This document shows positions 2,523 through 15,390 of a stretch of DNA of 32,881 bases, piece after piece (position 1 is the stretch's first letter; each line of letters begins with the position of its first letter). The DNA comes from Caldilineaceae bacterium. GTDB taxonomy: Bacteria; Chloroflexota; Anaerolineae; Caldilineales; Caldilineaceae. The DNA lies in NCBI GenBank assembly GCA_022824685.1, contig JAJDZJ010000042.1:1-32881 (forward strand). Direction: 5' to 3'. The translations under genes were made by a program, and so were the position numbers. The notes below the pieces were generated by a model. That model was not told the DNA's origin. It saw only the letters and a list, made by a program, of their open reading frames with translations, and made no database searches.

Positions 2523-3452
2523 ATGCCGAAGATCCCTTGTAAAGGCATCAACAAAGATGGCACCCCCTGCAAAGGGAACGGCCTGCCCGCCCTGGACGGC
2601 TACTGCATCGCCCACGGCTCCGCCGAGAAAACGCGCGAGTGGCGCGTGCGCGGCGGCAAGAACTCCTCCACCGCCGCCAGGGCCGACCAGCGCACGCCCG
2701 AACGGCTGCGGCGTGCCTTCGAAGAGCTCGAACAGGGCCTCGTCGATGTGCGCGAGGATAAACTCGCCCCCGCCGCCTACACTGCAATGTCCCGCGGCGT
2801 TATGGCGATGCTCGCCCTCCACCGCCGCTCCGATGAGGAAATGGATCTGATCCGCAACGAAGAAACCGAAACCGCCGCCATGGAGGTCCTCGGCGACCAC
2901 GGCGACCTAGCCATCCTCAACGCCGCCGCCCAAATCGCCGACCAGCAAAACCGGAACAGAATCGAATCGCTCATCGCCCAGGGCCTGGCTACGCTCGAAC
3001 AGTCGCAGGACGCCGGCGAACCCGCCGAACCCGTCCTCACAGACAAAGGCAGACGGCGCTTCGGCTACCAGCGCCTGACCAGCTACACGCAAGAGGACCT
3101 CGACCACCTGAAATATGTGCTGATGGAAAGGGGTTTGGACGGGCATCAAGTTCCCGACCTGCGAGACGCTCTGGCCAGAATGCGCTCCGCCATGGAAGAG
3201 GCCTTGGCCGACCTCGCAGGCAACCCCGATCCACCCCGCGACCCCCTGACCGGCCAGCCCTTAACCCAGCTGCCCGCCGGCGTCAAAACCGGCCTGCTTA
3301 CAACCGCCAATCCTGTCAGCGCTGAACAGGCCGCAAAAATCCTGAAGGATCAGATCCGGCAGACAAAAAAACTTACCCTTGAATTCAACGAACAATATGA
3401 AGACGAGCAGGTTGACGGTACCTTGGACAGGCTGACCGCCAACTCGCACTGA
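2523..3452 (+). CDS. Uncharacterised protein with N-terminal CCCH zinc motif
   Basis: The 309-residue product starts with a compact Cys/His cluster: C6-x9-C16-x11-C28-x2-H31, of the CKG...PCKG...YCIAHG kind seen in small zinc-binding modules of phage-like and uncharacterised proteins. The rest is charged and helical, with Ala/Glu-rich segments (about 55-170) and a C-terminal stretch rich in Lys and Glu. There are no membrane segments. The start is secured by GGAGG at 2510-2514, 8 nt upstream. It stands alone, with its own promoter. DNA or RNA binding through the zinc motif is a guess. Short zinc modules of this type also occur in some small terminase-like proteins, but no terminase is nearby. 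Confidence 0.7.
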   Translation: MPKIPCKGINKDGTPCKGNGLPALDGYCIAHGSAEKTREWRVRGGKNSSTAARADQRTPERLRRAFEELEQGLVDVREDKLAPAAYTAMSRGVMAMLALHRRSDEEMDLIRNEETETAAMEVLGDHGDLAILNAAAQIADQQNRNRIESLIAQGLATLEQSQDAGEPAEPVLTDKGRRRFGYQRLTSYTQEDLDHLKYVLMERGLDGHQVPDLRDALARMRSAMEEALADLAGNPDPPRDPLTGQPLTQLPAGVKTGLLTTANPVSAEQAAKILKDQIRQTKKLTLEFNEQYEDEQVDGTLDRLTANSH

Positions 3453-6546: not shown

Positions 6547-7584
6547 ATGGCATCTGTTCAGACGGCCCCGGCCTCTCAGTTGAACGGCTCGCCCGATCCG
6601 GCGCTGGCGGCCAGCGGCTTGGAACCGGGCAACGGCGCGGCTGCAGGGGCGGCATCTTATGGGAGCATCAGGCAGTTCTATGCTGAGAACGGCTACTATA
6701 TTCTGCCGGATGCGCTGACGCCGGTGGAGGTGGAGGAGCTGCGAGCAGAGACGACGGCTATCTGTAAAGGTGAGCGCGGCGATGTGGACGGATTTGAGCC
6801 GGGCATGCCGGGGGAGAGCGAGGAGGATGCGCTTCGGCGGTATCTTTGCATCCATTTTCCGCACAAGATCTCCGAGATCATGTTGGACTATCTCGGCCAC
6901 CCGCATATCGCCAATGTGCTGACGCAGGTGATTGGGCCGAACGTGAAGTGTATGCAGTCGATGCTGTTCATTAAGGCGACGGGCAAGCCGGGCCAGGCGT
7001 GGCACCAGGACGAGTATTTCATCCCCACGCGGGACCGGACGCTGACCGGCGCGTGGATCGCTTTGGACGATGCGACTATGGAGAACGGCTGCCTCTGGGT
7101 CATTCCCGGCTCGCACAAGCGCGGCATCATCTGGCCGCAGCACGACCATGACGATCCGCGCTTTGACTGCGCGGGCGAAGCGTACGGCTTCCCTTACACG
7201 GACGAGGACTCGATTCCGGTGGAGGTGAAGGCGGGGGCGCTGGTCTTCTTCAACGGCTATCTGCTGCACCGCTCGTTTCCGAACCGGGCGCAGAGCGGAT
7301 ACCGCCGCGTGCTGGTGAACCACTACATGAGCGCGGAGTCGCTGCTGCCGTGGCGGAGCCCGAAGGAGGGCCAGCACATGGCGGTTGCGGACTACCGTGA
7401 CATTGTGATGATCGCGGGCGAGGACCCCTACCCCTGGCAAGGGTTTGAGGAGCTGGCGGCGCCGAAGGTGCGGCCGACCGGCGAAGGGGGCTGCGAGCAG
7501 TGGCGGCGAGGCGACAAACGCGAGAAACTACCCTTTTTCAAAGATGGATTCCGCCCCGGAGATGCGCCCGAAGATGACGACTGA
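6547..7584 (+). CDS. Phytanoyl-CoA dioxygenase (PhyH) family protein, copy 2
   Basis: This is the tandem paralogue of the gene at 5161, also 345 residues. Residue numbering is preserved: H153-x-D155 (AWHQDEY), H241 and the GYRR arginines. The two proteins differ mainly in the N-terminal 45 residues and near the active site, where copy 1 has DEFSIP and copy 2 DEYFIP, and HYHED becomes HDHDD, so substrate range may differ slightly. The start at 6547 is fixed by AAGGAG (6534-6539), 7 nt upstream, exactly as in copy 1. The stop overlaps the amidase start by 11 nt, so dioxygenase and amidase are translationally coupled and likely act on the same compound. A non-heme iron oxygenase acting with a hydrolase on an amide substrate is plausible but inferred. 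Confidence 0.88.
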   Translation: MASVQTAPASQLNGSPDPALAASGLEPGNGAAAGAASYGSIRQFYAENGYYILPDALTPVEVEELRAETTAICKGERGDVDGFEPGMPGESEEDALRRYLCIHFPHKISEIMLDYLGHPHIANVLTQVIGPNVKCMQSMLFIKATGKPGQAWHQDEYFIPTRDRTLTGAWIALDDATMENGCLWVIPGSHKRGIIWPQHDHDDPRFDCAGEAYGFPYTDEDSIPVEVKAGALVFFNGYLLHRSFPNRAQSGYRRVLVNHYMSAESLLPWRSPKEGQHMAVADYRDIVMIAGEDPYPWQGFEELAAPKVRPTGEGGCEQWRRGDKREKLPFFKDGFRPGDAPEDDD

Positions 7585-9049
7585 TCTCTGCTTTCGCAAC
7601 GCAAGGGAACTGGCCGCGGGCATCCGCGGCGGAGAATACAGCAGTGTCGAGGTTACCGAGGCGCACATTGCACAGATCGAGCGGGTGAACCCGTCGGTCA
7701 ATGCGGTGGTGACCTTTTTGCCGGAGCAGGCGCTGGAACGCGCCAGGGCCGCGGACGAGGCGCTGGCGCGGGGCGGAGTGGTTGGGCCGCTGCACGGGCT
7801 GCCGATGCTGCACAAGGACACGACGGACACGGCGGGGATCCGCACGACGTACGGTTCGCCGATTCACCGGGACAATGTGCCGGCGCAGAGCCAGCTGATC
7901 ATCGAGAGGCTGCATGCGGCCGGCGCAATCCCGATGGGGAAGACGAACGTGCCGGAGTTCGGGGCCGGTTCGCAGTCGTTCAACCCGGTGTTTGGGGCGA
8001 CGGGCAATCCGTACGACCCAAGCAAGACGTGCGGGGGGTCGAGCGGCGGGCAGGCGGTGGCGCTGGCGTGCGGGATGACACCGGTTGCGGACGGCAGCGA
8101 CATGGGCGGTTCGCTGCGCAACCCGGGCAACTACTGTAATGTCGTGGGCTTCCGAGTTTCACCGGGCCGGGTTCCGGTATGGCCGAGTTTGGCAGGTTGG
8201 TCGGGGCTGTCTGTGCAGGGGCCGATGGGGCGTACTGTGGCGGACGTTGCTTTTCTTTTGAGTGTGATTGCGGGGCCGGACGCACGTTCGCCGATCGCGC
8301 AGTCGGAGCCGGGCAGCGTTTTTGCACGTCCGCTGGCGCGCGATTTCAGCGGCGTGCGGATTGCGTACAGCGCGGATTTGGGCGGCGAGTTCCCGGTTGA
8401 CCCGCGGGTGAGGAACGCGATCGAGGCGCAGCTGCCGGCGTTCGGTGAACTTGGATGCGAGGTGACCGATTTCAGCGGCGCGGGCGCGGGGCGGCCGCGG
8501 GGTGACGGTCCGGGTTTGCCGGATTTCGGCGGCGCGGACGAGATTTTCAAGACGTTGCGGGCGTGGAGCTTCCATCATTCGCACGGGCCGCTTCTGGCGG
8601 AGCACCGCCATCAGATGAAGGACACGATCATCTGGAACGTCGAACAGGGGGCGAAGCTGAGCGGCGCAGACCTGGCACGCGCCGAAGAGATGCGCACGAC
8701 GTTGTATCAGGCGATGCGCGTCTTTATGGAGACGTATGAGTTCCTGCTGCTGCCGGTGAACCAGGTCCCGCCCTTCTCGGTGGACGTGCCGTATCCGACC
8801 TCCATCGACAGCGGGAACGGGATTGTGGAAATGGAGACCTATATAGACTGGATGAAGTCGTGCTACTTCATCACTGTGACGGGCCATCCGGCCATTTCGG
8901 TACCCTGCGGGTTCACGCCAGAGGGGCTGCCGGTGGGCGTGCAGATCGTGGGCCGCCACCGGGATGATTTCGGCCTGTTGCAGCTGGCGCATGCGTTTGA
9001 ACAGGTGACGAGGGTGGGGGAACGCAGACCGGCACTGGTCAGTGCTTAG
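7574..9049 (+). CDS. Amidase signature family enzyme
   Basis: The 491-residue protein has the Ser-cisSer-Lys triad of amidase-signature hydrolases: K81 in LHKDTTDTAG, the cis-Ser in GGSSGG (155-159) and nucleophile S180 in GSDMGGSLRNPG. The length is normal for the family. I chose the start at 7574 (MTTDLCFRNA), inside the end of the PhyH gene, because the family begins about here; a longer frame would lie wholly inside PhyH. The enzyme hydrolyses a carboxamide; the substrate is unknown. It lacks the GatB/GatC neighbours of Gln-tRNA amidotransferase, so a GatA role is unlikely. The coupling to PhyH copy 2 suggests a shared catabolic pathway. Confidence 0.9.
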   Translation: MTTDLCFRNARELAAGIRGGEYSSVEVTEAHIAQIERVNPSVNAVVTFLPEQALERARAADEALARGGVVGPLHGLPMLHKDTTDTAGIRTTYGSPIHRDNVPAQSQLIIERLHAAGAIPMGKTNVPEFGAGSQSFNPVFGATGNPYDPSKTCGGSSGGQAVALACGMTPVADGSDMGGSLRNPGNYCNVVGFRVSPGRVPVWPSLAGWSGLSVQGPMGRTVADVAFLLSVIAGPDARSPIAQSEPGSVFARPLARDFSGVRIAYSADLGGEFPVDPRVRNAIEAQLPAFGELGCEVTDFSGAGAGRPRGDGPGLPDFGGADEIFKTLRAWSFHHSHGPLLAEHRHQMKDTIIWNVEQGAKLSGADLARAEEMRTTLYQAMRVFMETYEFLLLPVNQVPPFSVDVPYPTSIDSGNGIVEMETYIDWMKSCYFITVTGHPAISVPCGFTPEGLPVGVQIVGRHRDDFGLLQLAHAFEQVTRVGERRPALVSA

Positions 9050-12917: not shown

Positions 12918-13219
12918 TTTTGGGGCTTTTCAGGGTTGGCAACAGCGCTTGCGGCTGGCCGGATGTGTTTGGCGGGGCGGCTTCTGCTTTGGCATAATGA
13001 CGAGTGACGCCCGCCCACTCTCTGGATGTTTCTCTTCCCTCGGCGATCGGCAGACACAGGGATCTCGACGGGCTGCCAAGGAAGGCGACCAGTCAGGTGG
13101 CAGAGTCACGCGACGGGTTTGATTCTACTCGTGTGGAGAAACATGATCAAGTGCAAAGCGCGTTCAGTTTGTTGTAACAGGACGCGGGCAAAGGCGCCGC
13201 CGTCCGAGGAGGAAGGTCG
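12918..13219. other. Divergent intergenic region
   Basis: This 302-nt spacer separates the amidohydrolase (minus) and the thioredoxin-like lipoprotein (plus). A possible plus-strand promoter is TTGGCG (12969-12974), 18 nt, CATAAT (12993-12998). AGGAGG just before 13220 is the ribosome site of the lipoprotein. I see no gene in it. Confidence 0.45.
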
Positions 13220-13762
13220 ATGACAGCAGTTCACAGGCAGTTTGCTCTCGTTGTTCTTGTGTTGGCCCTGGCGCTGTCGGGCTGCAACGCGTTAACCGGC
13301 GAGGAGGCGCCGGCCGCGGCGGAAGAGGTCGCGCAGGATACGGAGGCGCCGGCGGTTGAGGAGGCAACGGCCACGCCGGAGCCGGAACCGACCGAGGTTG
13401 CGATCGGACCGCCGCCGGCCTTCAGAGAAGAGTTGCAGCCGACCGACCCGGCGACTGTTGCGCTGGGCGTCGGCCAACCCCAGGTGGTCGAACTCTTCGC
13501 TTTCTGGTGACCGGTCTGCGTCCGCTTTGCCCCTGTGGTTCACAGGCTCGAGATTGATTACTGGGGACAGGTCGAGTTCATCTATCTGGACATTGACGAT
13601 GCGAACGTGGCACCCTACAAGCAGCAGTTCAACTTCCGCTACCAGCCCCACCTGATCCTGCTGGACGGAGAGGGGAATGTGGTGCAGGAGTACGTCGGTG
13701 CGCAACCTGAAGCGGATCTGCGCGCCGCGCTGGACAATCTGATTGCGGTAAGCAGCGAATAG
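13220..13762 (+). CDS. Thioredoxin-like lipoprotein, putative selenoprotein (in-frame TGA)
   Basis: The frame from ATG 13220 (AGGAGG upstream) encodes a lipoprotein signal peptide (LALALSGC, lipid Cys 22), an acidic Pro/Glu/Ala-rich linker (about 28-62), then VVELFAFW followed by TGA at 13508-13510 and, in the same frame, PVCVRFAPVVHRL to a stop at 13762. In thioredoxins the sequence at this point is W-C-P-x-C, so the TGA replaces exactly the first active-site Cys, giving a W-U-P-V-C redox site in a 180-residue protein. The part after the TGA is a normal thioredoxin fold (FIYLDIDD; YQPHLILLDGEGNVV with the strand before cis-Pro region). A hairpin suited to a bacterial SECIS lies just downstream. 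Without Sec insertion only a 96-residue stub would form. A chance nonsense mutation is the alternative. Confidence 0.75.
13511..13546 (+). promoter_or_regulatory. Candidate bacterial SECIS hairpin after the TGA
   Basis: CCTGTG (13532-13537) pairs perfectly with CACAGG (13541-13546) around GTT; opening the last pair gives a GGTTC loop. The loop begins 26-27 nt after the TGA, within the 16-37 nt usual for bacterial SECIS elements, and starts with G as these loops do. The lower stem is weak. Support comes from the position relative to the TGA codon rather than from the fold alone. Confidence 0.55.
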
Positions 13763-13857: not shown

Positions 13858-15390
13858 ATGAAAGAAGAACTTGGCGAAGTGACGATCGTCCAACTGCAGG
13901 AGGATATGGCCGCGGGCGTGCGCACGGCCGTCAGCATTACCGAGGGCTATCTGGCGGCGATTGCTGCGTTGGACGACATTCTGCGCTCGGTGATCGAGAC
14001 CAACCCGGACGCGGAGGCGATCGCGGCGCGGCTGGACTCTGAACGCGCCGCGGGCCGTGTGCGCGGGCCGCTGCATGGCATTCCCATTCTATTGAAGGAC
14101 AATATCGATACGGCTGACCGCATGAAAACAACGGCGGGCTCCCTGGCTCTGCTGGGGTCGCGGCCGGCGCGGGATGCGACGGTGGCGGCCGCGCTGCGGG
14201 AAGCGGGCGCGGTGATTCTCGGCAAGGCCAACCTGAGCGAATGGGCCAATTTCCGATCGACGAAATCGACGAGCGGTTGGAGCGGGCGCGGGGGCCAGTG
14301 CCGAAACCCCTTTGATCCGGACCGCAACCCTGGGGGCTCCAGCTCCGGTTCGGGAGCGGCGGTGAGCGCGAATCTGGCGGCGGCGGCGCTGGGCACGGAG
14401 ACGGACGGCTCGATCGTGAACCCGTCGGGCGCGTGCGGCATCGCGGGCATCAAGCCGACAGTGGGATTGAGCAGCCGGGCGGGCGTCATTCCGATCTCGC
14501 ATACGCAGGATACGGTGGGGCCGATGGCGCGCACCGTCGCTGACGCGGCGGCTGTGCTGGGCGCGCTCACCATGGCAGACGGGCGCGACGCGGCGACGGG
14601 GGCCAAGGGGAGACGTGCACACGGCGACTACCGGCAGTATCTGGACGCCGACGGTTTGCGGGGCGCGCGCATTGGGGTGGCGCGCAAAGTGGTTAGCGGC
14701 TATGACGGGCCGACGGACGGGGTGTTCGAGGAGGCGATCCGGGCGATCCGCGACGCGGGCGCGGAGGTGATCGACCCTGCCGACATCCCGACGGTTGAGG
14801 ACGAAAGAATGGGCGCGAGCGAATTGGTGGTCATGGAGACGGAGTTCAAGCATGGCATTGCCAGCTATCTGGCGACGCGAATCGCGGCGGATGGGGAGAT
14901 GCCCCGGCCGCGAACGCTGGCTGATCTGATCCGTTTCAACGAGGCGCACGCGGAGCGGGAACTGGCCCATTTCGGCCAGGAGCGTTTTGAACGCTCGCAG
15001 GCGCGGGGTCCTCTCGACGGCGAGGAATATGTGGAGGCGCTGGCTACGGGCAGGCGGCTGGCGGGCGCGGAAGGGCTGGACGCGGTGCTGGACGAGCATG
15101 GATTGGACGCGCTGATTGCGCCGACGGGCGGGCCGGCGTGGCCGCTCGACCCGGAGGCGGGGGATGCCGTTCATGGCGGGAGTTCGCGCTGCGCCGCGGT
15201 GGCGGGCTATCCGCTGGTGACGGCGCCGGCCGGCTTTGTGCCGCAGGGTACCGAGAGCGGGGCGGGAAAGGACCTGCCGATTGGGCTTACCTTTATGGGG
15301 CGCGCGTGGAGCGAGCCGGTGCTGATCCGCCTTGCCTATGCTTTTGAACAGGTTACGCAGGCGCGGCGTCCGCCGGAATTGGAAGGATAG
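13858..15390 (+). CDS. Amidase signature family enzyme (second)
   Basis: The 510-residue protein carries the amidase triad: K80 in ILLKDNIDT, the cis-Ser within GGSSSGSG (159-166) and nucleophile S185 in GTETDGSIVNPSG. A Gly-rich insert (TSGWSGRGGQCRNPFDPDRN) before the Ser loop is typical of the long amidases related to plant and bacterial GatA-like proteins that are not Gat subunits. It is only distantly related to the amidase at 7574. The start is the first ATG of the conserved region; the ribosome site is weak. It is followed after 67 nt by a CBS protein, perhaps in the same transcript. The substrate is unknown. Confidence 0.88.
   Translation: MKEELGEVTIVQLQEDMAAGVRTAVSITEGYLAAIAALDDILRSVIETNPDAEAIAARLDSERAAGRVRGPLHGIPILLKDNIDTADRMKTTAGSLALLGSRPARDATVAAALREAGAVILGKANLSEWANFRSTKSTSGWSGRGGQCRNPFDPDRNPGGSSSGSGAAVSANLAAAALGTETDGSIVNPSGACGIAGIKPTVGLSSRAGVIPISHTQDTVGPMARTVADAAAVLGALTMADGRDAATGAKGRRAHGDYRQYLDADGLRGARIGVARKVVSGYDGPTDGVFEEAIRAIRDAGAEVIDPADIPTVEDERMGASELVVMETEFKHGIASYLATRIAADGEMPRPRTLADLIRFNEAHAERELAHFGQERFERSQARGPLDGEEYVEALATGRRLAGAEGLDAVLDEHGLDALIAPTGGPAWPLDPEAGDAVHGGSSRCAAVAGYPLVTAPAGFVPQGTESGAGKDLPIGLTFMGRAWSEPVLIRLAYAFEQVTQARRPPELEG

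Follow-up and report, generated by a model that had tools for sequence, protein, structure and literature searches.

A putative selenocysteine-containing thioredoxin-like lipoprotein of Caldilineaceae with relatives in other Anaerolineae

The locus and its product

The window, which designates here the whole stretch of 32,881 nucleotides analysed (contig JAJDZJ010000042.1 of the Caldilineaceae assembly GCA_022824685.1), carries a gene for a thioredoxin-like lipoprotein whose reading frame contains an internal TGA. Its features are the following.

12969-12998, + strand: candidate promoter (TTGGCG, 18 nt, CATAAT), suggested by a by-eye reading of the intergenic alignment
13220-13762, + strand: putative gene of a selenocysteine (Sec)-containing thioredoxin-like lipoprotein, TGA taken as Sec, 180 residues, stop TAG; single frame, match to PF00085, TGA at the same codon in 16 orthologues of the genus
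13220-13285, + strand: predicted signal peptide and lipobox LALALSGC, with the lipid-anchored Cys22 at codon 13283-13285; read from the sequence, Cys invariant in 16/16 genus members
13508-13510, + strand: in-frame TGA (candidate UGA-Sec) that opens the U-P-V-C active site; found at this codon in all 16 genus members and in 18 more Anaerolineae orthologues, replaced by TGC or TGT in Cys homologues
13517-13519, + strand: TGC, presumed resolving Cys of U-x-x-C, invariant in the genus and in the wider alignment
13531-13547, + strand: bSECIS-like hairpin with stem 13531-13537/13541-13547 and loop GUU at 13538-13540, recognised by its position, compensatory pairs and low synonymous change

When TGA is read as Sec (U), frame 13220-13762 contains this single TGA, ends at TAG and codes for 180 residues, with 83 sense codons on the 3' side of the TGA and a W-U-P-V-C active site around it. 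The Pfam Thioredoxin domain PF00085 spans the TGA (residues 86-172, E 2.3e-11, 44.1 bits against a cut-off of 23.5). Alignment with solved thioredoxins, and above all with the best structural match, places the TGA opposite the first Cys of W-C-x-x-C. The claims of the sequence-only reading that one frame is broken only by TGA at the first active-site Cys, and that it stays open with thioredoxin sequence for 83 more residues, are thus borne out. So is its expectation that a standard gene caller would miss the enzyme: gene calling with table 11 yields a 96-residue ORF and possibly a separate piece starting at the in-frame GTG at 13535.

The protein is composed of a hydrophobic signal with lipobox, a linker rich in Pro, Ala, Glu and Thr, and a carboxyl-terminal thioredoxin domain. 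The lipobox was read by eye from the hydrophobic stretch followed by LALALSGC, and a comparable one is present in other Anaerolineae orthologues. The full-length protein, when modelled from few aligned sequences, gave a poor structure (pLDDT 49), and a model of the domain alone, for which the input was the domain together with Cys homologues (pLDDT 91), was used instead. Its top Foldseek matches are m-type and bacterial thioredoxins, with TM of about 0.7-0.8. The window protein is a member of the thioredoxin superfamily by Pfam and by its predicted fold. The Gln that precedes the presumed cis-Pro (YQPH) is retained in Sec and Cys members.

The gene is flanked upstream by an amidohydrolase gene on the opposite strand and downstream by an amidase gene, an arrangement kept in all 15 genus loci examined. 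These neighbours are not kept around the Cys homologues, so the neighbourhood offers no functional clue. Two amidase genes (PF01425) are found in the window, at 7445-9049 and 13858-15390. The intergenic box TTGGCGGGGCGGCTTCTGCTTTGGCATAATG at 12969-12998 is retained in most members of the genus and is, judging from its sequence, a possible promoter of the thioredoxin-like gene.

Conservation of the TGA codon and selenocysteine machinery

Of the 17 genomes of the genus, 16 carry the gene, each with TGA at this codon; three of these genomes (G017, G019, G020) consist of a single contig. The genome in which it was not found is 81% complete and split into about 730 contigs. The public records matched are metagenome-assembled genomes of Caldilineaceae; the remaining 29 genomes of the family gave no orthologue at E 1e-12. 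A first scan for more distant homologues relied on a pair of peptide patterns; as one of them demanded a Cys codon at the site, the scan was biased against distant TGA forms. It identified seven homologues from Anaerolineae and other Chloroflexota with TGC or TGT at the codon. A profile built from Sec and Cys members was then searched against 400 Chloroflexota genomes (E 1e-18) and matched 21 of them, namely the window's own, 18 others whose match contains a single TGA, and two in which Cys is encoded instead. Confinement of TGA to one genus, as the pattern scan had suggested, is therefore wrong, an artefact of the Cys-codon pattern that the profile search corrected. The TGA occupies the same active-site position in the 17 further loci read out of 18 (L139 was left out), and the alignment of homologues displays either Cys or TGA at exactly this codon. 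Two candidate orthologues, L040 and L041, were rejected as ordinary CGPC thioredoxins. Note that most of the distant Sec orthologues (among L133-L148) have the core FRFT-U-G/S-T-C, in which Thr replaces the usual Trp before the first Cys.

The genome that holds the window (a draft of 5.2 Mb, 98.7% complete with about 3.6% contamination) has all four of selA, selB, selC (tRNA-Sec) and selD, the genes whose presence the earlier reading had put forward as a check. A tRNA-Sec, searched for in this genome, scores above the Rfam cut-off and is called SeC(tca) by ARAGORN; selA and selB are above their cut-offs, the product of the latter featuring a GTPase and the SelB wing_2/wing_3 winged-helix domains, and selD has an in-frame TGA of its own within AGUASKLPPG. 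These genes sit on contigs other than that of the window. They are not an accident of binning, because selB is found in 42 of the 46 genomes of the family (24/24 of those of high quality) and selD, which almost always has a TGA of its own, in 43 of the 46. SepSecS is an archaeal and eukaryotic enzyme, and its absence from the window genome, searched with PF05889, is thus expected. Among the genomes matched by the profile, selB is above cut-off in 18/18 of the further TGA genomes and in neither of the two Cys genomes, which argues that use of Sec follows the machinery.

A true stop at the UGA would leave a lipoprotein stub of 96 residues and a small thioredoxin piece initiated at the GTG at 13535. 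This is the outcome of table 11, and several neighbouring genes of the window end in TGA, which is therefore also an ordinary stop codon here. In every orthologue read, however, thioredoxin sequence is kept both before and after the TGA, and no orthologue has a different stop codon at the position; termination would cut inside the active site and delete the first catalytic residue, and the homologues with Cys there have one unbroken frame. Termination is accordingly very improbable, and the decoding of this UGA as Sec is the reading pursued below.

The hairpin downstream of the TGA

The published bSECIS model defines a loop of 3-9 nt starting with G, a spacing of 16-37 nt and a minimum free energy of at most -7.5 kcal/mol (PMC13188914, Fig. 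2). Loop and spacing of the hairpin at 13531-13547 agree with this model. The G that opens its loop is the 28th base past the TGA, with 27 nt between them, in keeping with the loop starting with G at 26-27 nt that had been noticed from the sequence alone. In the 15 other members of the genus the hairpin reads GCCUGUG-GUU-CACAGGC (27 nt past the TGA, the loop being GUC in one), with 7 bp and -9.8 kcal/mol. In the window copy, and in it only, the outermost pair 13531-13547 is a C facing a C, leaving an uninterrupted stem of 6 bp that accounts for -6.4 kcal/mol (this stem only), short of the -7.5 of the model. The window copy is thus slightly weakened, the one respect in which this particular locus is weak. 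The 53-nt window RNA folded alone prefers another structure and has no significant hairpin (z -0.23), and a score at least as good as that of the window hairpin is reached at 11% of the TGAs of the window. As the hairpin is unremarkable in the window RNA alone, the argument rests on comparison, that is, on conservation and covariation in the relatives.

Anaerolineae orthologues have at the same place, among others, GCCCAUG-GUU-CAUGGGC, GUCCAUG-GUU-CAUGGAC, AGCCCGU-CGUGC-ACGGGCU and AGCCUAC-CGUGA-GUAGGCU. When 28 sequences are aligned without gaps, 97.9% of the cells are paired, and pairing falls to 15-51% when the partner strand is slid. Both sides have changed in 4 of the 7 pairs (e.g., CG to UA and AU to GC). 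Such changes fill 25 cells against 8.9 in shuffles, none of 500 shuffles reaching 25; note that cells are sequences and not independent events, and that the changes involve four different pairs in several lineages. RNAalifold recovers the same helix unprompted. Within the genus, the codons for F-A-P-V-V-H-R show a synonymous divergence of 0.036 per pair compared to 0.314 elsewhere (permutation p about 2e-4), and all 16 members share, within the hairpin, two codons that are rare among the window genes: CCT, which makes up 6% of Pro codons there, and AGG, which makes up 5% of Arg codons. Conservation of the hairpin in the relatives, with compensatory changes, in this way strengthens the proposal of a bSECIS-like element at a suitable distance from the TGA.

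The selD gene of the window genome (L021, TGA at 271-273) is a selenoprotein gene itself and has a clear hairpin, TTGTCGCA-GGTCG-TGCGGCAG. Its GGUCG loop lies 32 nt past the TGA on a stem unrelated to that of the thioredoxin gene, whose own loop reads GGUUC once the top pair of the stem is opened.

That a suppressor tRNA of another kind inserts Cys or Trp at the UGA is less probable still than termination. Transfer RNAs that decode UGA as other residues are known, but the genome has a tRNA-Sec with UCA anticodon together with a complete sel set; the covarying hairpin fits a SelB signal and would be needless for suppression; selB accompanies the TGA form in 18/18 genomes and is missing from the genomes with the Cys form (2/2); and selD is a second Sec gene of the same arrangement. 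A sequencing error or pseudogene, conceivable in a metagenome-assembled draft, is the least credible explanation and is already refuted by the orthologues: the same TGA recurs in 16 genomes of the genus, three of which are single-contig, and in 18 more distant ones, and the coding sequence past it is conserved.

Proposed function and relation to known proteins

Sec decoding thus provides the best explanation: the gene almost certainly encodes a selenoprotein, in which UGA codon 97 is decoded as Sec in a membrane-anchored thioredoxin-like lipoprotein. The identification put forward in the sequence-only reading, a putative selenoprotein of this type, finds support in the machinery, in the Cys and TGA homologues and in the covarying hairpin. 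SelB carrying Sec-tRNA(Sec) would insert Sec at this codon, directed by the small stem-loop inside the coding sequence with its loop 27 nt downstream of the UGA. The protein would probably be located at the outer face of the cytoplasmic membrane. It is probably a thiol/disulfide oxidoreductase. For its chemistry and redox direction it is proposed that Sec97 would attack the disulfide of a substrate, or else an oxidised sulfur group of another type or a peroxide, and that Cys100 would resolve the selenenylsulfide.

A Sec-containing thioredoxin (PF00085, UxxC) is known (PMC13188914, Table 1; source there, Kim et al. 2015). The window protein shares with it the thioredoxin fold and Sec as the first residue of U-x-x-C; it differs by its signal peptide, lipobox and long linker. 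Its motif is UPVC, and those of its relatives are UGTC, UPTC, USTC, UYTC or UVSC, in contrast to the classical CGPC pattern. In the TIGR01068 thioredoxin equivalog it reaches 43.5 bits, below the cut-off of 96.8. A second known group is NF041057, the NCBIfam family of Rcas_1661 thioredoxin-like (seleno)lipoproteins of Chloroflexota, which appears as 'DsbG-like' in a 2026 catalogue (PMC13188914). Its members are likewise thioredoxin-like lipoproteins of Chloroflexota with UxxC, and several have TGA. The window protein is not matched by NF041057 at E 0.01; 9 of 16 orthologues match, the best at E 1.7e-4 (the family cut-off is 190 bits). No NCBIfam cut-off is passed by the window protein or by four Anaerolineae orthologues. 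The window genome holds three other NF041057 matches, the best of which (C197:524-1126) has an open frame without TGA. The Cys-containing thioredoxin-like lipoproteins of Anaerolineae and other Chloroflexota (L057-L063) are alike in identity over the domain (40-47%), in their FAFW-x-P-x-C core and in the lipobox architecture; they differ in having TGC or TGT in place of TGA, and no stable hairpin was found in them.

As NF041057 and the Sec-thioredoxins are known, an extracytoplasmic selenoprotein of such type is not unprecedented. The earlier description as an 'unusual extracytoplasmic selenoprotein' stands for the identity of the protein, but 'unusual' was somewhat overstated for its location, NF041057 being already catalogued. 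Relatives sharing these features are spread over a class of Chloroflexota, which lends good support to a new branch within a known kind of protein, a new and apparently uncatalogued subfamily. No paper on this protein was found by title or abstract (Rcas_1661; Caldilinea with selenocysteine; Anaerolineae with selenoprotein). The overall picture, considered likely, is of a subfamily of Sec thioredoxin-like lipoproteins, uncatalogued as such, that occurs widely in Anaerolineae in step with selB, gives way to Cys forms in genomes lacking that gene, and would serve an extracytoplasmic selenium-based thiol pathway.

Such a subfamily would extend the prokaryotic selenoproteome by a thioredoxin-like branch that is anchored in the membrane and occurs in uncultured Caldilineaceae and other Anaerolineae. 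Standard annotation would split the gene and lose the enzyme in every carrier genome. If the overall picture holds, Anaerolineae would run a selenium-based thiol pathway outside the cytoplasm. The genes also supply naturally occurring Cys/Sec pairs, with use of Sec following selB, and have a SECIS hairpin with covarying pairs inside the coding sequence; together these render Cys/Sec exchange and the minimal requirements of a bSECIS directly testable.

One Cys homologue, L057, codes for the same P-V-V-H (3298-3340) and has a 4-bp remnant, CGTGGTTCATG, at the position of the hairpin, and may represent an intermediate stage in the exchange of Cys and Sec.
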